Positions 6,070 through 19,430 of a stretch of 20,959 nucleotides of DNA are shown here, one piece after another; position 1 is the stretch's first letter, and the number at the start of each line of letters is the position of its first letter. Source of the stretch: a virus. The DNA lies in the IMG/VR virus record IMGVR_UViG_3300011113_000126, positions 1 to 20,959 of that record; one strand, given 5' to 3'. Both the position numbers and the translations under genes were made by a program. The notes beneath the pieces are model-generated. The model made no database searches. It saw only the letters and a list, made by a program, of their open reading frames with translations, and was not told the origin of the DNA.

Positions 6070-6507
6070 TCATGCCTTAAGACCAGTGCGGTAATACCTT
6101 ATGGTCATAGGCGTTAAGACGGGGTTAACCGTCATGCTAATTGTACCAGAATTTAGCGCTGCTGAGATTGTTCCAACATCGCTATTAGTGTTCTTAACAG
6201 AGCCATACTCTGTTATGTTTTGATCGGTACCATCAAAAACCAAGTTTATCTCAGTACTTCTGTATGAAGAAGATCCAGCATGAGATAGTTGAAGCAAATA
6301 CTTTATAGTTCTCCAAACCGTAGTATCTATAGTGTCAAATACTAATGGAGATTCTATGCCATTGATCGTTACGGAGTTATTTCCATCCCCGCCCAAAGAA
6401 TCAGCACGGTAGGAAGCAGTGTCAATTAAATCTACGAAATCCTGTTGCGTTGGTCTATCGCCAGTTTCAAATTTAGTCTTAAGTTGGGTAATAGGGACAA
6501 TGGCCAT
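6070..6507 (-). CDS. Phage structural protein with RSAKYL-type C-terminal domain
   Basis: This 145-aa protein has two parts. The N-terminus (PITQLKTKFETGDRPTQQDF, then LIDT) is a motif seen at the start of many phage tail-fibre-associated proteins. The C-terminal ~85 residues (WRTIKYLLQLSH, ITEYGSV) are homologous to the C-terminus of the next gene's product. It may be a short attachment version of that domain. The ATG has no Shine-Dalgarno site; instead a perfect extended -10 ends 8 nt before it, so a leaderless transcript is predicted. It is the first gene of the 6507-4052 unit. Confidence 0.7.
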   Translation of the reverse strand: MAIVPITQLKTKFETGDRPTQQDFVDLIDTASYRADSLGGDGNNSVTINGIESPLVFDTIDTTVWRTIKYLLQLSHAGSSSYRSTEINLVFDGTDQNITEYGSVKNTNSDVGTISAALNSGTISMTVNPVLTPMTIRYYRTGLKA

Positions 6508-6734: not shown

Positions 6735-7126
6735 GATGTTGGATCTGCTGTAATATCATCTATAATAATCATTTTACCTTTAGCAAGAGTCCATACACGA
6801 TCTGGGTCTGAAATCTGAATATCAAATTCATCATCAGTTTCTAATGCTTGAGAATCAGAACTTGAAAGAGAAACTGTAAAACTACCAGTAGCACCATCAT
6901 CTTCGGTAATTGTTGGGGTAAGCGAAACAATAACATCATTATCTTCAGAAGGACGAATAATATCCATTGCAAGGGTCCATGTAGATAAATCTAATGGGTT
7001 ACGGTCATCGTCATCAACATATACACGAAATGAAGCAGTATCTCCACGAACCACTGTCCAAGTAATTGTAGGTGGTTCAGATCCAATTGAATAAGCGCTA
7101 TTACCAGTATTTCTATAACTTGTCAT
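6731..7126 (-). CDS. BppU-like N-terminal domain protein
   Basis: This 131-aa protein has the pattern TITWTVVRGDTASFRVYVDD, then DLSTWTLAMDIIRP, ending in KGKMIIIDDITADP. It matches the beta-sandwich N-domain of phage baseplate upper proteins (BppU type), which attaches receptor-binding parts to the baseplate. It is paralogous to the 17812-18222 protein (ITWTVVRGDT versus IQWNVVRGDT) and more distantly to 17370-17720. It overlaps both neighbours by ATGA, so the three genes 7650-6537 form one coupled unit. The domain name is from family memory; the paralogy is visible. Confidence 0.7.
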   Translation of the reverse strand: MTSYRNTGNSAYSIGSEPPTITWTVVRGDTASFRVYVDDDDRNPLDLSTWTLAMDIIRPSEDNDVIVSLTPTITEDDGATGSFTVSLSSSDSQALETDDEFDIQISDPDRVWTLAKGKMIIIDDITADPTS

Positions 7127-7650
7127 GACAAACCTTCCTTAAGCGATCCCCATGTGCCATTACCCTTATTTGCACCGACTATAATTATACCTGATGTTGC
7201 TGCTTTTGCTACCACGCCAATTACGCCACCGCCACTTGTTGGTTGTGTATTTGTAAGTCCTCCACCTGCTGCAACATATAGCCTATCTCCAGCGGTATAT
7301 GAAGAAGTATTAACATCACTAAAAATTCCATTAACAATAATTACTCCATCAGATCCATTTGTAATTGCTGCCTGTGCAAGACCAACTACAGGAAATGTTG
7401 CTGATGTATTTGCATCTGATTTTGTAATGCGTGGCTTAGTTGCACCAAATCCAGAAATATAAACTGGTGATGCTTTTGCAATTGTTGAGCCAGTATTATT
7501 AACAACTTCTAATGTATGATATGGAAGTCCGAGGGTAGGCAAAATAGCATCAATTGCTTCTGCCAATCCTTGTATATCTTCATGTACATTTACTGGATCA
7601 GATGCAACGGGATACGGTAAATCATATGTAATTGTTTCGCCAGATGCCAT
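7123..7650 (-). CDS. Phage virion surface protein, TWGSLKEG C-terminus
   Basis: This 175-aa protein begins with a segment about initial-condition length (ITYDLPYPVASDPVNVHEDI, then AEAIDAI) often seen at the start of phage fibre proteins. It then has a beta-rich body (LEVVNNTGSTIAKASPVYI, GIIIVGANKGNGTWGSLK). The pattern PVYISG, VGLA, VNGIF, DRLYV resembles capsid-decoration and fibre domains that present surface loops. The C-terminal TWGSLKEG resembles TWGDVKNGK in the 2236-4011 protein. The start has no ribosome site and lies 9 nt from an extended -10 box, so a near-leaderless mRNA is expected. The HNH gene lies immediately upstream. Confidence 0.65.
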   Translation of the reverse strand: MASGETITYDLPYPVASDPVNVHEDIQGLAEAIDAILPTLGLPYHTLEVVNNTGSTIAKASPVYISGFGATKPRITKSDANTSATFPVVGLAQAAITNGSDGVIIVNGIFSDVNTSSYTAGDRLYVAAGGGLTNTQPTSGGGVIGVVAKAATSGIIIVGANKGNGTWGSLKEGLS

Positions 7651-7659
7651 AGTTCTTAT

Positions 7660-7668
7660 ATTATAGCA
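7660..7668 (-). promoter_or_regulatory. Extended -10 promoter overlapping the HNH stop codon
   Basis: The minus strand reads TGCTATAAT. The last sense codon (CTA) and the stop (TAA) of the HNH gene lie inside this box. The predicted start is about 3 nt before the ATG at 7650. Confidence 0.65.
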
Positions 7669-8131
7669 CTTTCAGACTAGACTTATGTAGGTTGCAAAGC
7701 CCATGCGTTGGCCTTACATTCTGTATATTATCTAGCCCTCCAAGAGAAACTGGAACTAAATGATCAATATGTAGCCCTTTTTGCCAGCCTGGTTTTCCAG
7801 TCCTTCTTGGAGCATTTAGGTCAATTGGCTTTAAGCATATACTACAGTTGGTTCCGTATAACTGTAAAACCTCTAAATCTGTATATGTTTTATGTTTAGA
7901 GTTTTCTCTATTTTTACGAATTAGTTTATTTCTTCTTGAAACTTCTGGATATCTTTTGTGATAATCTCTTCTCCATTTTTGCATTTTTTCTTGATTTTCT
8001 TTATAATACTTTCTATGAGACACTAATATAGTCTCTTTATTTTGTTTAAAATATTCAACATTGTAGTGTTTTCTACACATGCCTTTTATTTGACCAATTT
8101 TATCACAACTATCATAAATACAGGTATTCAT
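7661..8131 (-). CDS. HNH endonuclease with N-terminal zinc finger
   Basis: This 156-aa protein is a probable DNA nuclease of the freestanding phage HNH type. Residues 4-22 form a small zinc site (C4, C9, C19, H22). Residues ~30-80 are very basic and probably bind DNA. Residues 96-149 carry the HNH fold: CSIC, HIDHLVPVSLGG (catalytic His at 121-124), an N in the middle and CNLH at 146-149. I chose ATG 8131 because the zinc finger starts there and a TGGTATATT box ends 6 nt upstream, predicting a leaderless mRNA. An alternative ATG at 8161 has a G-rich upstream but would add a hydrophobic, non-family extension. It stands alone between a divergent lysozyme gene and a fibre unit, as homing-type nucleases often do. 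No intron or intein is evident. Confidence 0.88.
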   Translation of the reverse strand: MNTCIYDSCDKIGQIKGMCRKHYNVEYFKQNKETILVSHRKYYKENQEKMQKWRRDYHKRYPEVSRRNKLIRKNRENSKHKTYTDLEVLQLYGTNCSICLKPIDLNAPRRTGKPGWQKGLHIDHLVPVSLGGLDNIQNVRPTHGLCNLHKSSLKVL

Positions 8132-8154: not shown

Positions 8155-8184
8155 TTGACATACCGCCCCAAAATATGTTATACT
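8155..8184 (+). promoter_or_regulatory. Near-consensus sigma70 promoter of the lysozyme gene
   Basis: TTGACA (8155-8160) is followed 18 bp later by TATACT (8179-8184), preceded by TGT to give an extended -10. It is the strongest promoter in the window. The predicted +1 is about 8191. Confidence 0.85.
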
Positions 8185-8190
8185 TAGTGC

Positions 8191-8215
8191 ATAGCACTGT
8201 TAATTACAGTGCTAT
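8191..8215 (+). promoter_or_regulatory. 5'-terminal hairpin of the lysozyme transcript
   Basis: A perfect 10-bp inverted repeat has arms ATAGCACTGT and ACAGTGCTAT around the loop TAATT. It begins at the predicted +1 and ends 10 nt before the AAGGAGG ribosome site (8225-8231), so the mRNA would start as a stem-loop. It may stabilise the message, as 5' hairpins do in other phages, or be an operator. Confidence 0.65.
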
Positions 8216-8237
8216 TGCGTTTCTAAGGAGGAAAAAC

Positions 8238-8795
8238 TTGAGAGACAGAAAAATACTATCGGGGGTTCTTGCAACTATGTTTGGAATTGTAACACTTTTG
8301 GGTGCTATTCCAAATGCCGCTGCCAAGAATAACTTGTCTTATAAAACTAATGAACCAGCAGTTGCTGCCGCCCACAAGGCGGCTCTTTTGCTATCTAAGG
8401 CTAAAAATGACGAGGTGCTTGAAAAATATAATAACGCTACAAGTTTGACTAATAGCCAGTTAGTTGAATTACTTAAGGCAGTAGGGTTCAAAGGAAAAGG
8501 TCTAGTTACTGCTTATGCAGTTGCTAAGGCCGAATCTAATGGAAGACCTCTAGCCTTCAATGGAAATATCAAAACTGGAGACTCCTCTTTTGGCGTCTTT
8601 CAAATTAATATGCTAGATGTTCTTGGAGAGGATCGCCGTGAGCGATTTGATCTAGAGCATAATGCTGATCTTTTCAATCCCGTCATAAATGCACAAATTG
8701 CATATCGTATGACTAAGGGCGGGGAAGATTGGAGTTCATGGTCATCTTACAATAAAGGTGCTGTGAATAAGTGGCTTCATAAATTCCCTAGTTAA
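8238..8795 (+). CDS. Exported lysozyme-like/transglycosylase enzyme (endolysin candidate)
   Basis: This 185-aa protein starts at TTG 8238 behind AAGGAGG. An upstream in-frame TTG at 8175 lies before the transcript start and is rejected. Residues 1-29 are a signal peptide: basic RDRK, hydrophobic core, then NAAA cleavage. Residues ~40-80 are helical linker. Residues 85-182 are a lysozyme-fold domain. VAKAESNGRP holds the likely catalytic Glu99, GDSSFGVFQIN is the conserved substrate-cleft segment, and WSSWSSYNKG is the C-terminal part. It would cleave peptidoglycan after Sec export, as a lysin or a virion hydrolase. It is the only plus-strand gene inside the tail-fibre region and has its own promoter and terminator. 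The exact bond cut is not readable. Confidence 0.88.
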   Translation: MRDRKILSGVLATMFGIVTLLGAIPNAAAKNNLSYKTNEPAVAAAHKAALLLSKAKNDEVLEKYNNATSLTNSQLVELLKAVGFKGKGLVTAYAVAKAESNGRPLAFNGNIKTGDSSFGVFQINMLDVLGEDRRERFDLEHNADLFNPVINAQIAYRMTKGGEDWSSWSSYNKGAVNKWLHKFPS

Positions 8796-8809: not shown

Positions 8810-8841
8810 AATACCCCCAGATATAAAAGTCTGGGGGTATT
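8810..8841. terminator. Bidirectional intrinsic terminator between lysozyme and tail operon
   Basis: A 12-bp stem (AATACCCCCAGA with TCTGGGGGTATT) surrounds an 8-nt loop. On the minus strand it is followed by TTTTTA, a good U-tract, and on the plus strand by TATTTAAATATT. It ends both the lysozyme gene and the minus-strand unit 9920-8851. Confidence 0.9.
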
Positions 8842-9953: not shown

Positions 9954-10541
9954 TTAAAGTGCTCCCATAAGAAGAAGCATTAATTCATCATTAACACTGC
10001 CTACTAATCCAGCACCAGAAATTACAATATCTCCTACTGAATTAATAGTTCCTGTTGATGTTACTGCGCCAGTTAAAATTGGAGCAGTCAAAGTTTTGTT
10101 GCTCATTGTCATTGTATTGCTTGTAGTAGCAACAAATGTTGTATCTACCGACAAAGTTACGCTGCCAGCGGTTCCGCCTCCGCTTAAACCTGTGCCTGCT
10201 GTAACTCCAGAAATATCACCATCATTAGCAACCCAAGCAGAGCCATTGTAGTATTGCCATTGATTGATTGTGTTACCGCCAGCATCTTGACGAATAAATG
10301 CAACTGATCCATGAACTGGAGATGGAATTGCTGCTGCAAGTGCAGCGGGATTTAAAAAGTTATTAATACCTTCTCTTGAAGTCAAAGAATCTGCAAAACT
10401 TGCATCGCTAGAAAATGCATGAACACCTGTCCATGTATATCCTGCAGAGGTATCTATTGCACCGCCTAGTTGTAGCCATACGTCAGTTTCCTGATCGTAC
10501 ATGAAGGCTGGTTTGCCAGAGTAGTTAAATGTTGTAGGCAT
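9954..10541 (-). CDS. Short tail fibre paralogue with TTSNTMTMSNKTL shaft motif
   Basis: This 195-aa protein shares its N-terminus (MPTTFNYSGKPAFMYDQETD) with the 13223-14062 protein (MPTFNTTDPKPGYIYDSSDD). It also shares the module GTGLSGGG, VATTSNTMTMSNKTLTAP with that protein and with 15540-16772. It lacks their large C-terminal domain (APEERxxVTAASAxGTxN to QTxFA) and ends instead in a short unrelated tail (MLLLMGAL). It looks like a truncated or alternative-tip version of the fibre. The ATG has no ribosome site and lies 7 nt from a perfect TGCTATAAT, so a leaderless mRNA is predicted. It is a single-gene unit. Confidence 0.7.
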   Translation of the reverse strand: MPTTFNYSGKPAFMYDQETDVWLQLGGAIDTSAGYTWTGVHAFSSDASFADSLTSREGINNFLNPAALAAAIPSPVHGSVAFIRQDAGGNTINQWQYYNGSAWVANDGDISGVTAGTGLSGGGTAGSVTLSVDTTFVATTSNTMTMSNKTLTAPILTGAVTSTGTINSVGDIVISGAGLVGSVNDELMLLLMGAL

Positions 10542-17720: not shown

Positions 17721-17815
17721 TAACGTGACACCTTATAAATCTTTCCGTCTACTTTAATAACAGGTGGAATATCAGTGCGTGTATCACTGATTTTTACGAC
17801 GGTAGGCAAAGTCAT
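17720..17815 (-). CDS. 31-aa small gene in the baseplate unit
   Basis: This very short open frame encodes MTLPTVVKISDTR, then TDIPPVIKVDGKIYKVSR. Its ATG follows an AGGAGGATC site and overlaps the upstream stop by ATGA. Its own stop overlaps the next start by TAATG. The double overlap, good ribosome site and lack of any other explanation for the 91-bp gap make it a likely real gene. It would be a small basic beta-strand peptide, perhaps a plug or linker of the baseplate proteins on either side. No family is recognised. Confidence 0.65.
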   Translation of the reverse strand: MTLPTVVKISDTRTDIPPVIKVDGKIYKVSR

Positions 17816-18222
17816 AATGATCCTCCTGGAGTAATATCTCCCAATACTCTAATTGTACCAACAATCGGAGTCCAAACTGTATCTTCTCCCGCTAGTTCCA
17901 TTTGAACCTGTAGGTCAAAAGGTAGTTCGGCTACAACGGTTTTATAAGCACTTCCCCAAGATAATGTCATAGAAGCGGGGGCAGTCAAAGTCACCGACCC
18001 AGTAGTAGCAGTCACTAGCAATTCATCTAGGACATCACCAACAGGATCATAAGCGGTAGCCTTATAAGACCAAGTATTAGTATTCCATTTTGTTATTTCA
18101 TCATCATTTAAGAAATCTACCTTTAGCGTAGCGGTGTCGCCACGAACAACATTCCATTGAATATTGGCTGGATTTGCTCCGAATTTATAGGTATCAGAAA
18201 CAACAAAGGATTTTTCAGTCAT
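17812..18222 (-). CDS. BppU-like N-terminal domain protein
   Basis: This 136-aa protein has NIQWNVVRGDTATLKVDFLN, TNTWSYKATAYDPVGDV and a C-terminal FDLQVQMELAGEDTVWTPIV, then GTIRVLGDITP. It is paralogous to the 6731-7126 protein, which ends in a similar VWTLAKGKMIIIDDITADP. It is likely a virion baseplate protein. It starts without a ribosome site 8 nt after a TGGTATAAT box, so a leaderless transcript is predicted. It is the first gene of the right-hand tail block; upstream is a divergent gene and a large inverted repeat. Confidence 0.7.
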   Translation of the reverse strand: MTEKSFVVSDTYKFGANPANIQWNVVRGDTATLKVDFLNDDEITKWNTNTWSYKATAYDPVGDVLDELLVTATTGSVTLTAPASMTLSWGSAYKTVVAELPFDLQVQMELAGEDTVWTPIVGTIRVLGDITPGGSL

Positions 18223-18386: not shown

Positions 18387-18414
18387 TTGACAAAAAAATT
18401 TTATAGTGTATACT
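18387..18414 (+). promoter_or_regulatory. Promoter of the plus-strand 18453 gene
   Basis: TTGACA (18387-18392) is followed after 16 bp by TATACT (18409-18414). The predicted +1 is about 18421, leaving a ~32-nt leader with AAGGGG before the TTG start. Confidence 0.75.
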
Positions 18415-19202: not shown

Positions 19203-19430
19203 TTATTTACTTGCGTGATCTTCAAGGTGAATCAACATAGCGTCGTATAGTTTATCTACTTTTGATTCAAGCCGAGTTACTTGATCTTTCATGCTAGATC
19301 CACTATTTGGCTTTAGTTCAACCATTATTTCTTCAACATATTTTTTCAAGATCCACCTCAAAACTAGTCCCACGGAGCCGACGATTCCAATTATCGTTGC
19401 AACCAATCCAGCCCATTCTTGTGGTGACAT
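19203..19430 (-). CDS. Holin-like small membrane protein
   Basis: This 75-aa protein has one predicted membrane span (residues ~8-27, LVATIIGIVGSVGLVLRWIL), a basic KK after it and a C-terminal coiled-coil segment (QVTRLESKVDKLYDAMLIHL). This arrangement fits many small phage holins, which open the membrane for lysins. There is no second span, so it is not a class I or II holin with certainty. It could also be a membrane anchor or antiholin. The start has no ribosome site and lies 9 nt after an extended -10 box, so a leaderless mRNA is expected. The lysozyme-like gene is 10 kb away. Confidence 0.6.
   Translation of the reverse strand: MSPQEWAGLVATIIGIVGSVGLVLRWILKKYVEEIMVELKPNSGSSMKDQVTRLESKVDKLYDAMLIHLEDHASK

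Follow-up and report, generated by a model that had tools for sequence, protein, structure and literature searches.

The stretch of DNA analysed here (the window) is a virus record of 20,959 bases, positions 1–20,959 of IMGVR_UViG_3300011113_000126. Its plus strand carries a gene for a lysozyme-like protein of 185 amino acids (8238–8795, TTG start at 8238) which, by profile and alignment, has a signal-peptide-like N-terminus and an SLT_3 domain (PF18896, E-value 3.5e-18; PF01464, E-value 1.8e-5). A promoter scan places the -35 hexamer TTGACA at 8155–8160 and an extended -10, TGT-TATACT, at 8176–8184 (TG at 8176, TATACT at 8179–8184), with a spacer of 18 between the two hexamers; a TTGAC-type -35 is also found upstream of most relatives. 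The predicted transcription start, A8191, lies seven nucleotides past the -10 and is the first base of an inverted repeat on the plus strand (8191–8215), ATAGCACTGT-TAATT-ACAGTGCTAT, the arms of which (8191–8200 and 8206–8215) are fully complementary over 10 bp and enclose the loop TAATT (8201–8205). The Shine-Dalgarno sequence AAGGAGG (8225–8231), which is kept in relatives, is located outside the hairpin, 9 nt past the stem. The sequence thus agrees with the initial annotation, which had described a near-consensus TTGACA/TATACT promoter with +1 at the first base of a perfect 10-bp stem ahead of AAGGAGG. The leader stretch GTTTCTAAGGAGG (8219–8231), before the lysozyme start, presumably resembles sequence near the end of the 16S rRNA of actinobacteria. 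A terminator-like inverted repeat on the same strand, AATACCCCCAGAT..GTCTGGGGGTATT (8810–8841), closes the unit, and similar stems are found past most relatives' genes. Upstream of lysozyme the longest open reading frame lies on the opposite strand in 29 of 31 loci, and the same holds downstream in 28 of 31, so the arrangement is conserved. A gene for an HNH endonuclease (PF01844, E-value 2e-7; 7661–8131) adjoins the lysozyme promoter in back-to-back orientation.

Promoter-like sites are not more numerous in the window than expected by chance (65 observed, 63.8 expected), and the case for the lysozyme promoter therefore rests on its quality and conservation. It is the top match in the 20 kb scanned (11/12), equal with a site at 18387 (TTGACA-16-TATACT) which is without a hairpin. 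Inverted repeats with 10 bp or more (loop 3–10) number just two in the window, the one at 8191–8215 and the terminator-like one at 8810–8841; the script used returned three nested entries, whereas 30 Markov shuffles averaged 0.3. The RNA from 8191 to 8225 is predicted to fold with -13.4 kcal/mol (z -4.67), which none of 200 dinucleotide shuffles equalled.

Relatives of the lysozyme gene were found 72 times in IMG/VR, while none was confirmed in bacterial genomes (112 pattern matches, 0 by tblastn). The host is probably an actinobacterium, as judged from other genes: the class II ribonucleotide reductase of the window shares 62% identity with its counterpart in the lake-water Actinomycetia phage DSL-LC01 (host label as stated in its record), and WhiB (PF02467) scores above cut-off in 10 of 26 records, including 9 of the 10 that exceed 85 kb. 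In a control set of 14 genomes WhiB was matched only in Corynebacterium. The window, a fragment, does not contain WhiB.

The conservation of the hairpin was followed in 79 loci (the window, the 72 relatives and six further record pieces), with a TGNTA-type -10 as search anchor, represented by TGTTATACT or TGTTATAAT in most. A leader was found in 74, corresponding to 37 distinct sequences; L014, L028, L057, L065, and L070 were left out before counting as the leader was cut off or no -10 or Shine-Dalgarno sequence was found, L028 nevertheless having a visible hairpin. Among the 37 distinct leaders, 34 (accounting for 70 of the 74 entries) have a stem of 6 bp or more just past the -10. Loss of pairing in relatives had been named in the initial annotation as grounds for abandoning the idea, and such loss is confined to three divergent leaders (L068/L072, L069, and L071). 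When +1 is taken as seven nucleotides past the -10, the stem begins 0–8 nt from it in the 34 hairpin leaders, leaving 0–4 predicted unpaired 5' nucleotides in 33 of them and 8 in L193. The arm sequences are highly diverse, including, besides ATAGCACTGT, TGACACC, ATGCTACC, TAACACC, CAACCCT, CAACACCAT, and ATGAGGCC; next to the loop ACC and GGT halves are partly conserved in sequence, at a spacing of 4 to 9 nt. In the clade of the window (8186–8198; L002, L008, L015, L164) the 3' arm occurs once more in the discriminator, as AGTGC-ATA-GCACT or a variant of it; this additional copy would sit upstream of +1 and co-varies with the arms. A discriminator complement of at least 5 nt is seen in 9 of the 26 leaders listed.

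The compensatory base changes that had been suggested as a check are present. When the 34 hairpin leaders alone, without the three hairpin-less ones, were aligned by MAFFT blind to structure, the shared register had 79.0% of its cells paired and a covariation score of 0.410 against 0.216 (sd 0.022) in shuffles, none of 500 reaching as high. Six slid registers scored 0.035–0.121, a comparison biased in favour of the structure because it was drawn from the same 34 sequences. Both sides have changed in 10, 14, and 16 sequences at the three central pairs. Two of the five measures did not rise above shuffles in this alignment, namely pairs with two-sided changes (7 versus a shuffle mean of 6.4) and additional pair types (19 versus 18.1). 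From the same input the RNAalifold consensus, in which four pairs have compensatory changes, kept only five pairs in all; misalignment of some five rows by the structure-blind method is the probable cause. As the letters change in matched pairs between relatives, it is the fold itself that is kept. A comparison of own with swapped arms was discarded, as the choice of the best stem biases it; reductase leaders whose stems do not exceed shuffles (the second type described below) still gave 0.88 as opposed to 0.57.

A second case in the window is located on the minus strand in the leader of the class II ribonucleotide reductase gene (2107–2141), where the extended -10 TGCTATACT (2141–2133) is followed by the hairpin ACTTTGCG-ATT-TGCAAAGT (2125–2107). 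A subset of relatives retains this hairpin, with covarying arms. The 80 reductase loci fall into two designs, one in which an AAACTC repeat directly before the -10 is absent (29 distinct leaders) and one in which it is present (24), and stems exceed shuffles only in the former. For 25 leaders picked from the hairpin type, the second type being excluded, the covariation score was 0.198 as compared to 0.135 in shuffles (0 of 500 as high). In the 24 distinct leaders of the second type (L100–L152) the inverted repeat AGAGTTTT..AAAACTCT stands directly before the extended -10 and replaces the -35 box; it is possibly an activator site.

The same layout is found in most of 60 distinct regions upstream of hsp20, with stems unlike those of lysozyme and reductase. 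About 60 nt before hsp20 (L194–L273) there is a strongly conserved hairpin, its core being GCC(C)AAAGGG, as well as a conserved ACTCGCTTAAYAAGGAGG; a conserved ACTCGCTTAA precedes the Shine-Dalgarno sequence, which lies downstream of the hairpin, and no Rfam match to the hairpin was found in the loci searched. In 9 of 80 loci the hairpin is kept without a recognisable extended -10 and may therefore not always be 5'-terminal. The hsp20 stem score exceeds only 90% of shuffles, and the case for this gene consequently rests on conservation and on the count of G-U and A-C departures given below. In one locus (L259) two tRNA genes lie immediately upstream of hsp20 (376–523).

Hairpins are not a general attribute of phage promoters. 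In 12 records they were found at 35 of 553 extended -10 sites and in 90 of 2757 control windows, and three genes account for 19 of the 35, namely lysozyme (11), reductase (5), and hsp20 (3); the remaining hits, listed in part for four records, are near chance. The feature is hence selective, and a 5' hairpin at every phage promoter was rejected.

A transcribed hairpin at the predicted 5' end of the lysozyme mRNA is strongly supported by the covariation, the adjacency to the -10 and the recurrence at two other genes. The proposal in the initial annotation is thereby upheld in part, for the hairpin at the 5' end; protection from decay would be the interpretation that fits best. For such protection the annotation had pointed to other phages, and the published cases drawn on here are bacterial mRNAs of E. 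coli and B. subtilis. We consider it the best reading, with a probability of roughly 0.6, that the element is a 5'-terminal stem-loop which protects selected actinophage mRNAs from decay, on account of its position, the variability of the loop and the lack of Shine-Dalgarno sequestration. The lysozyme would form a self-contained unit amid minus-strand genes, a single gene with a short leader that is driven by a strong extended -10 promoter and ended by a terminator. Transcription would begin at the base of a 6–10 bp stem or a few nucleotides from it, so that the mRNA opens as a closed hairpin; after a further 8–11 nt or so comes a ribosome-binding site of the AAGGAGG type, which the stem does not include. 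An end with so few unpaired nucleotides may be a poor substrate for pyrophosphohydrolases, for the 5'-sensing RNase E and for the 5'-exonucleolytic RNase J, and the message would be longer-lived. The start site is inferred, as are the gain in half-life, the enzymes and whatever advantage the phage derives. Several findings speak against this reading: the hairpin-less design of many reductase relatives, the three divergent lysozyme leaders that lack the stem, the 8 unpaired nucleotides of L193, the lack of a hairpin at most other extended -10 sites, the hsp20 loci in which no extended -10 is recognisable, and the partial sequence conservation of ACC and GGT beside the loop.

The least improbable alternative, which we nevertheless regard as unlikely, is that the hairpin acts on translation or transcription and not on decay, by freeing the Shine-Dalgarno sequence, providing a ribosome standby site or causing an early pause of RNA polymerase. 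The short and fairly fixed distance between hairpin and Shine-Dalgarno sequence would suit such a role, as would the partly open state of the latter in many folds. On the other hand a second stem of at least 6 bp holding the Shine-Dalgarno sequence was predicted in 15 of 37 lysozyme leaders as compared to 45.5% of shuffles. Sequestration not above chance argues against a translational switch, and a second hairpin of this kind, seen in single folds, was rejected for being no commoner than in shuffles. RNA thermometers occur at small heat shock genes (ROSE, hsp17), and the conserved leader hairpin at hsp20 in these phages is reminiscent of them. The likeness ends at the Shine-Dalgarno sequence, which in the lysozyme leaders is held in a stem no more than by chance and at hsp20 lies downstream of the hairpin.

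The inverted repeat could also be a DNA operator at +1 to +25 through which a dimeric phage or host regulator sets the timing of lysozyme expression. In favour of this are the perfect dyad that spans the start site and the third arm copy which the window's clade has in its discriminator. A palindrome selected as DNA is expected to show G-T and A-C mismatches equally often. Counted on the sense strand, departures from Watson-Crick pairing are G-U and A-C in a ratio of 19:8 for lysozyme (eight pairs), 12:5 for the reductase leaders and 28:0 for hsp20 (34 of the 60 distinct upstream regions, 29 distinct hairpins, with the register set by Watson-Crick pairs only). That they are mostly G-U favours RNA over a DNA operator, for which there would be no reason to prefer either, but as alignment cells are not independent the excess is to be taken as support and not as a probability. 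The spacing of 4 to 9 nt between ACC and GGT similarly suits a loop rather than a rigid operator, and since the arm sequences vary as well there is no fixed, recognisable half-site. Co-regulated copies are also lacking: a second copy of the palindrome (at most two mismatches) was absent from 9 of 10 records scanned, and the tenth (G012) contains partial matches with a 7-nt arm. A regulon of operator copies, with only weak matches in these records, was therefore rejected as the main reading, and as unrelated stems occupy the equivalent position at two other genes we find the operator distinctly improbable.

Template-switch mutation in quasi-palindromes can perfect a palindrome without selection, and events of this sort are suggested by the additional arm copy that sits in the discriminator in the clade of the window, but a functionless by-product of mutation is highly improbable for a hairpin that keeps its position beside the -10 in nearly all distinct leaders, passes through G-U intermediates and occurs at three genes and not at extended -10 sites generally.

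The T7 gene 10 leader is a phage mRNA that opens with a small 5' stem ahead of a strong Shine-Dalgarno sequence; the lysozyme leader is alike in this arrangement and differs in sequence, polymerase and host. The protective stem-loop preferred here has its closest counterparts among bacterial mRNAs, where 5'-terminal stabilising stem-loops are known from E. coli (ompA and papA type) and B. subtilis. They share with the lysozyme leader a stem near the predicted 5' end (within about 4 nt in 33 of the 34 hairpin leaders), a ribosome-binding site downstream that is not part of the stem, and a structure that is kept as sequence varies, the latter seen as covariation for lysozyme and reductase. The present leaders differ from them in belonging to phage genes of probable actinobacterial hosts, in being common to lysozyme, reductase and hsp20, and in that stabilisation is predicted. 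According to a review, adding a 5' hairpin stabilises bla mRNA and impedes RppH, and B. subtilis RppH requires at least two unpaired nucleotides, but rpsO mRNA and lacZ mRNA transcribed by T7 polymerase are not stabilised by a 5' hairpin (PMC3997798). No published description of the element was found in the literature covered, mostly as listings and the openings of abstracts, and Rfam release 15 at gathering score gave no match in the window and only tRNAs in 13 loci. Protective 5'-terminal stem-loops are thus already known in bacteria, and what appears to be new is a covarying set at three genes of uncultivated actinophages. One predicted hairpin has in this way become an RNA structure which is retained in many uncultivated freshwater phages and which no family in Rfam release 15 matches. 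It offers a mutable test case for whether actinobacterial phages shield the 5' ends of particular transcripts in hosts with both RNase E and RNase J, as mycobacteria have according to PMC10641625.

It is tempting, if quite tentative, to speculate that these phages sort their messages by the design of the 5' end, the lysozyme, reductase and hsp20 mRNAs, closed by hairpins that evolve as structures, outlasting general decay during infection and some structural genes being leaderless. An extended -10, TGNTATAAT, ends 7–9 nt before the ATG of the minus-strand genes at 6070–6507, 7123–7650, 9954–10541, 17812–18222, and 19203–19430, so that their mRNAs would be leaderless. The motif is found within 40 nt of 8 of the 25 minus-strand open reading frames listed, and 12 copies lie on the minus strand as compared to one on the plus strand.
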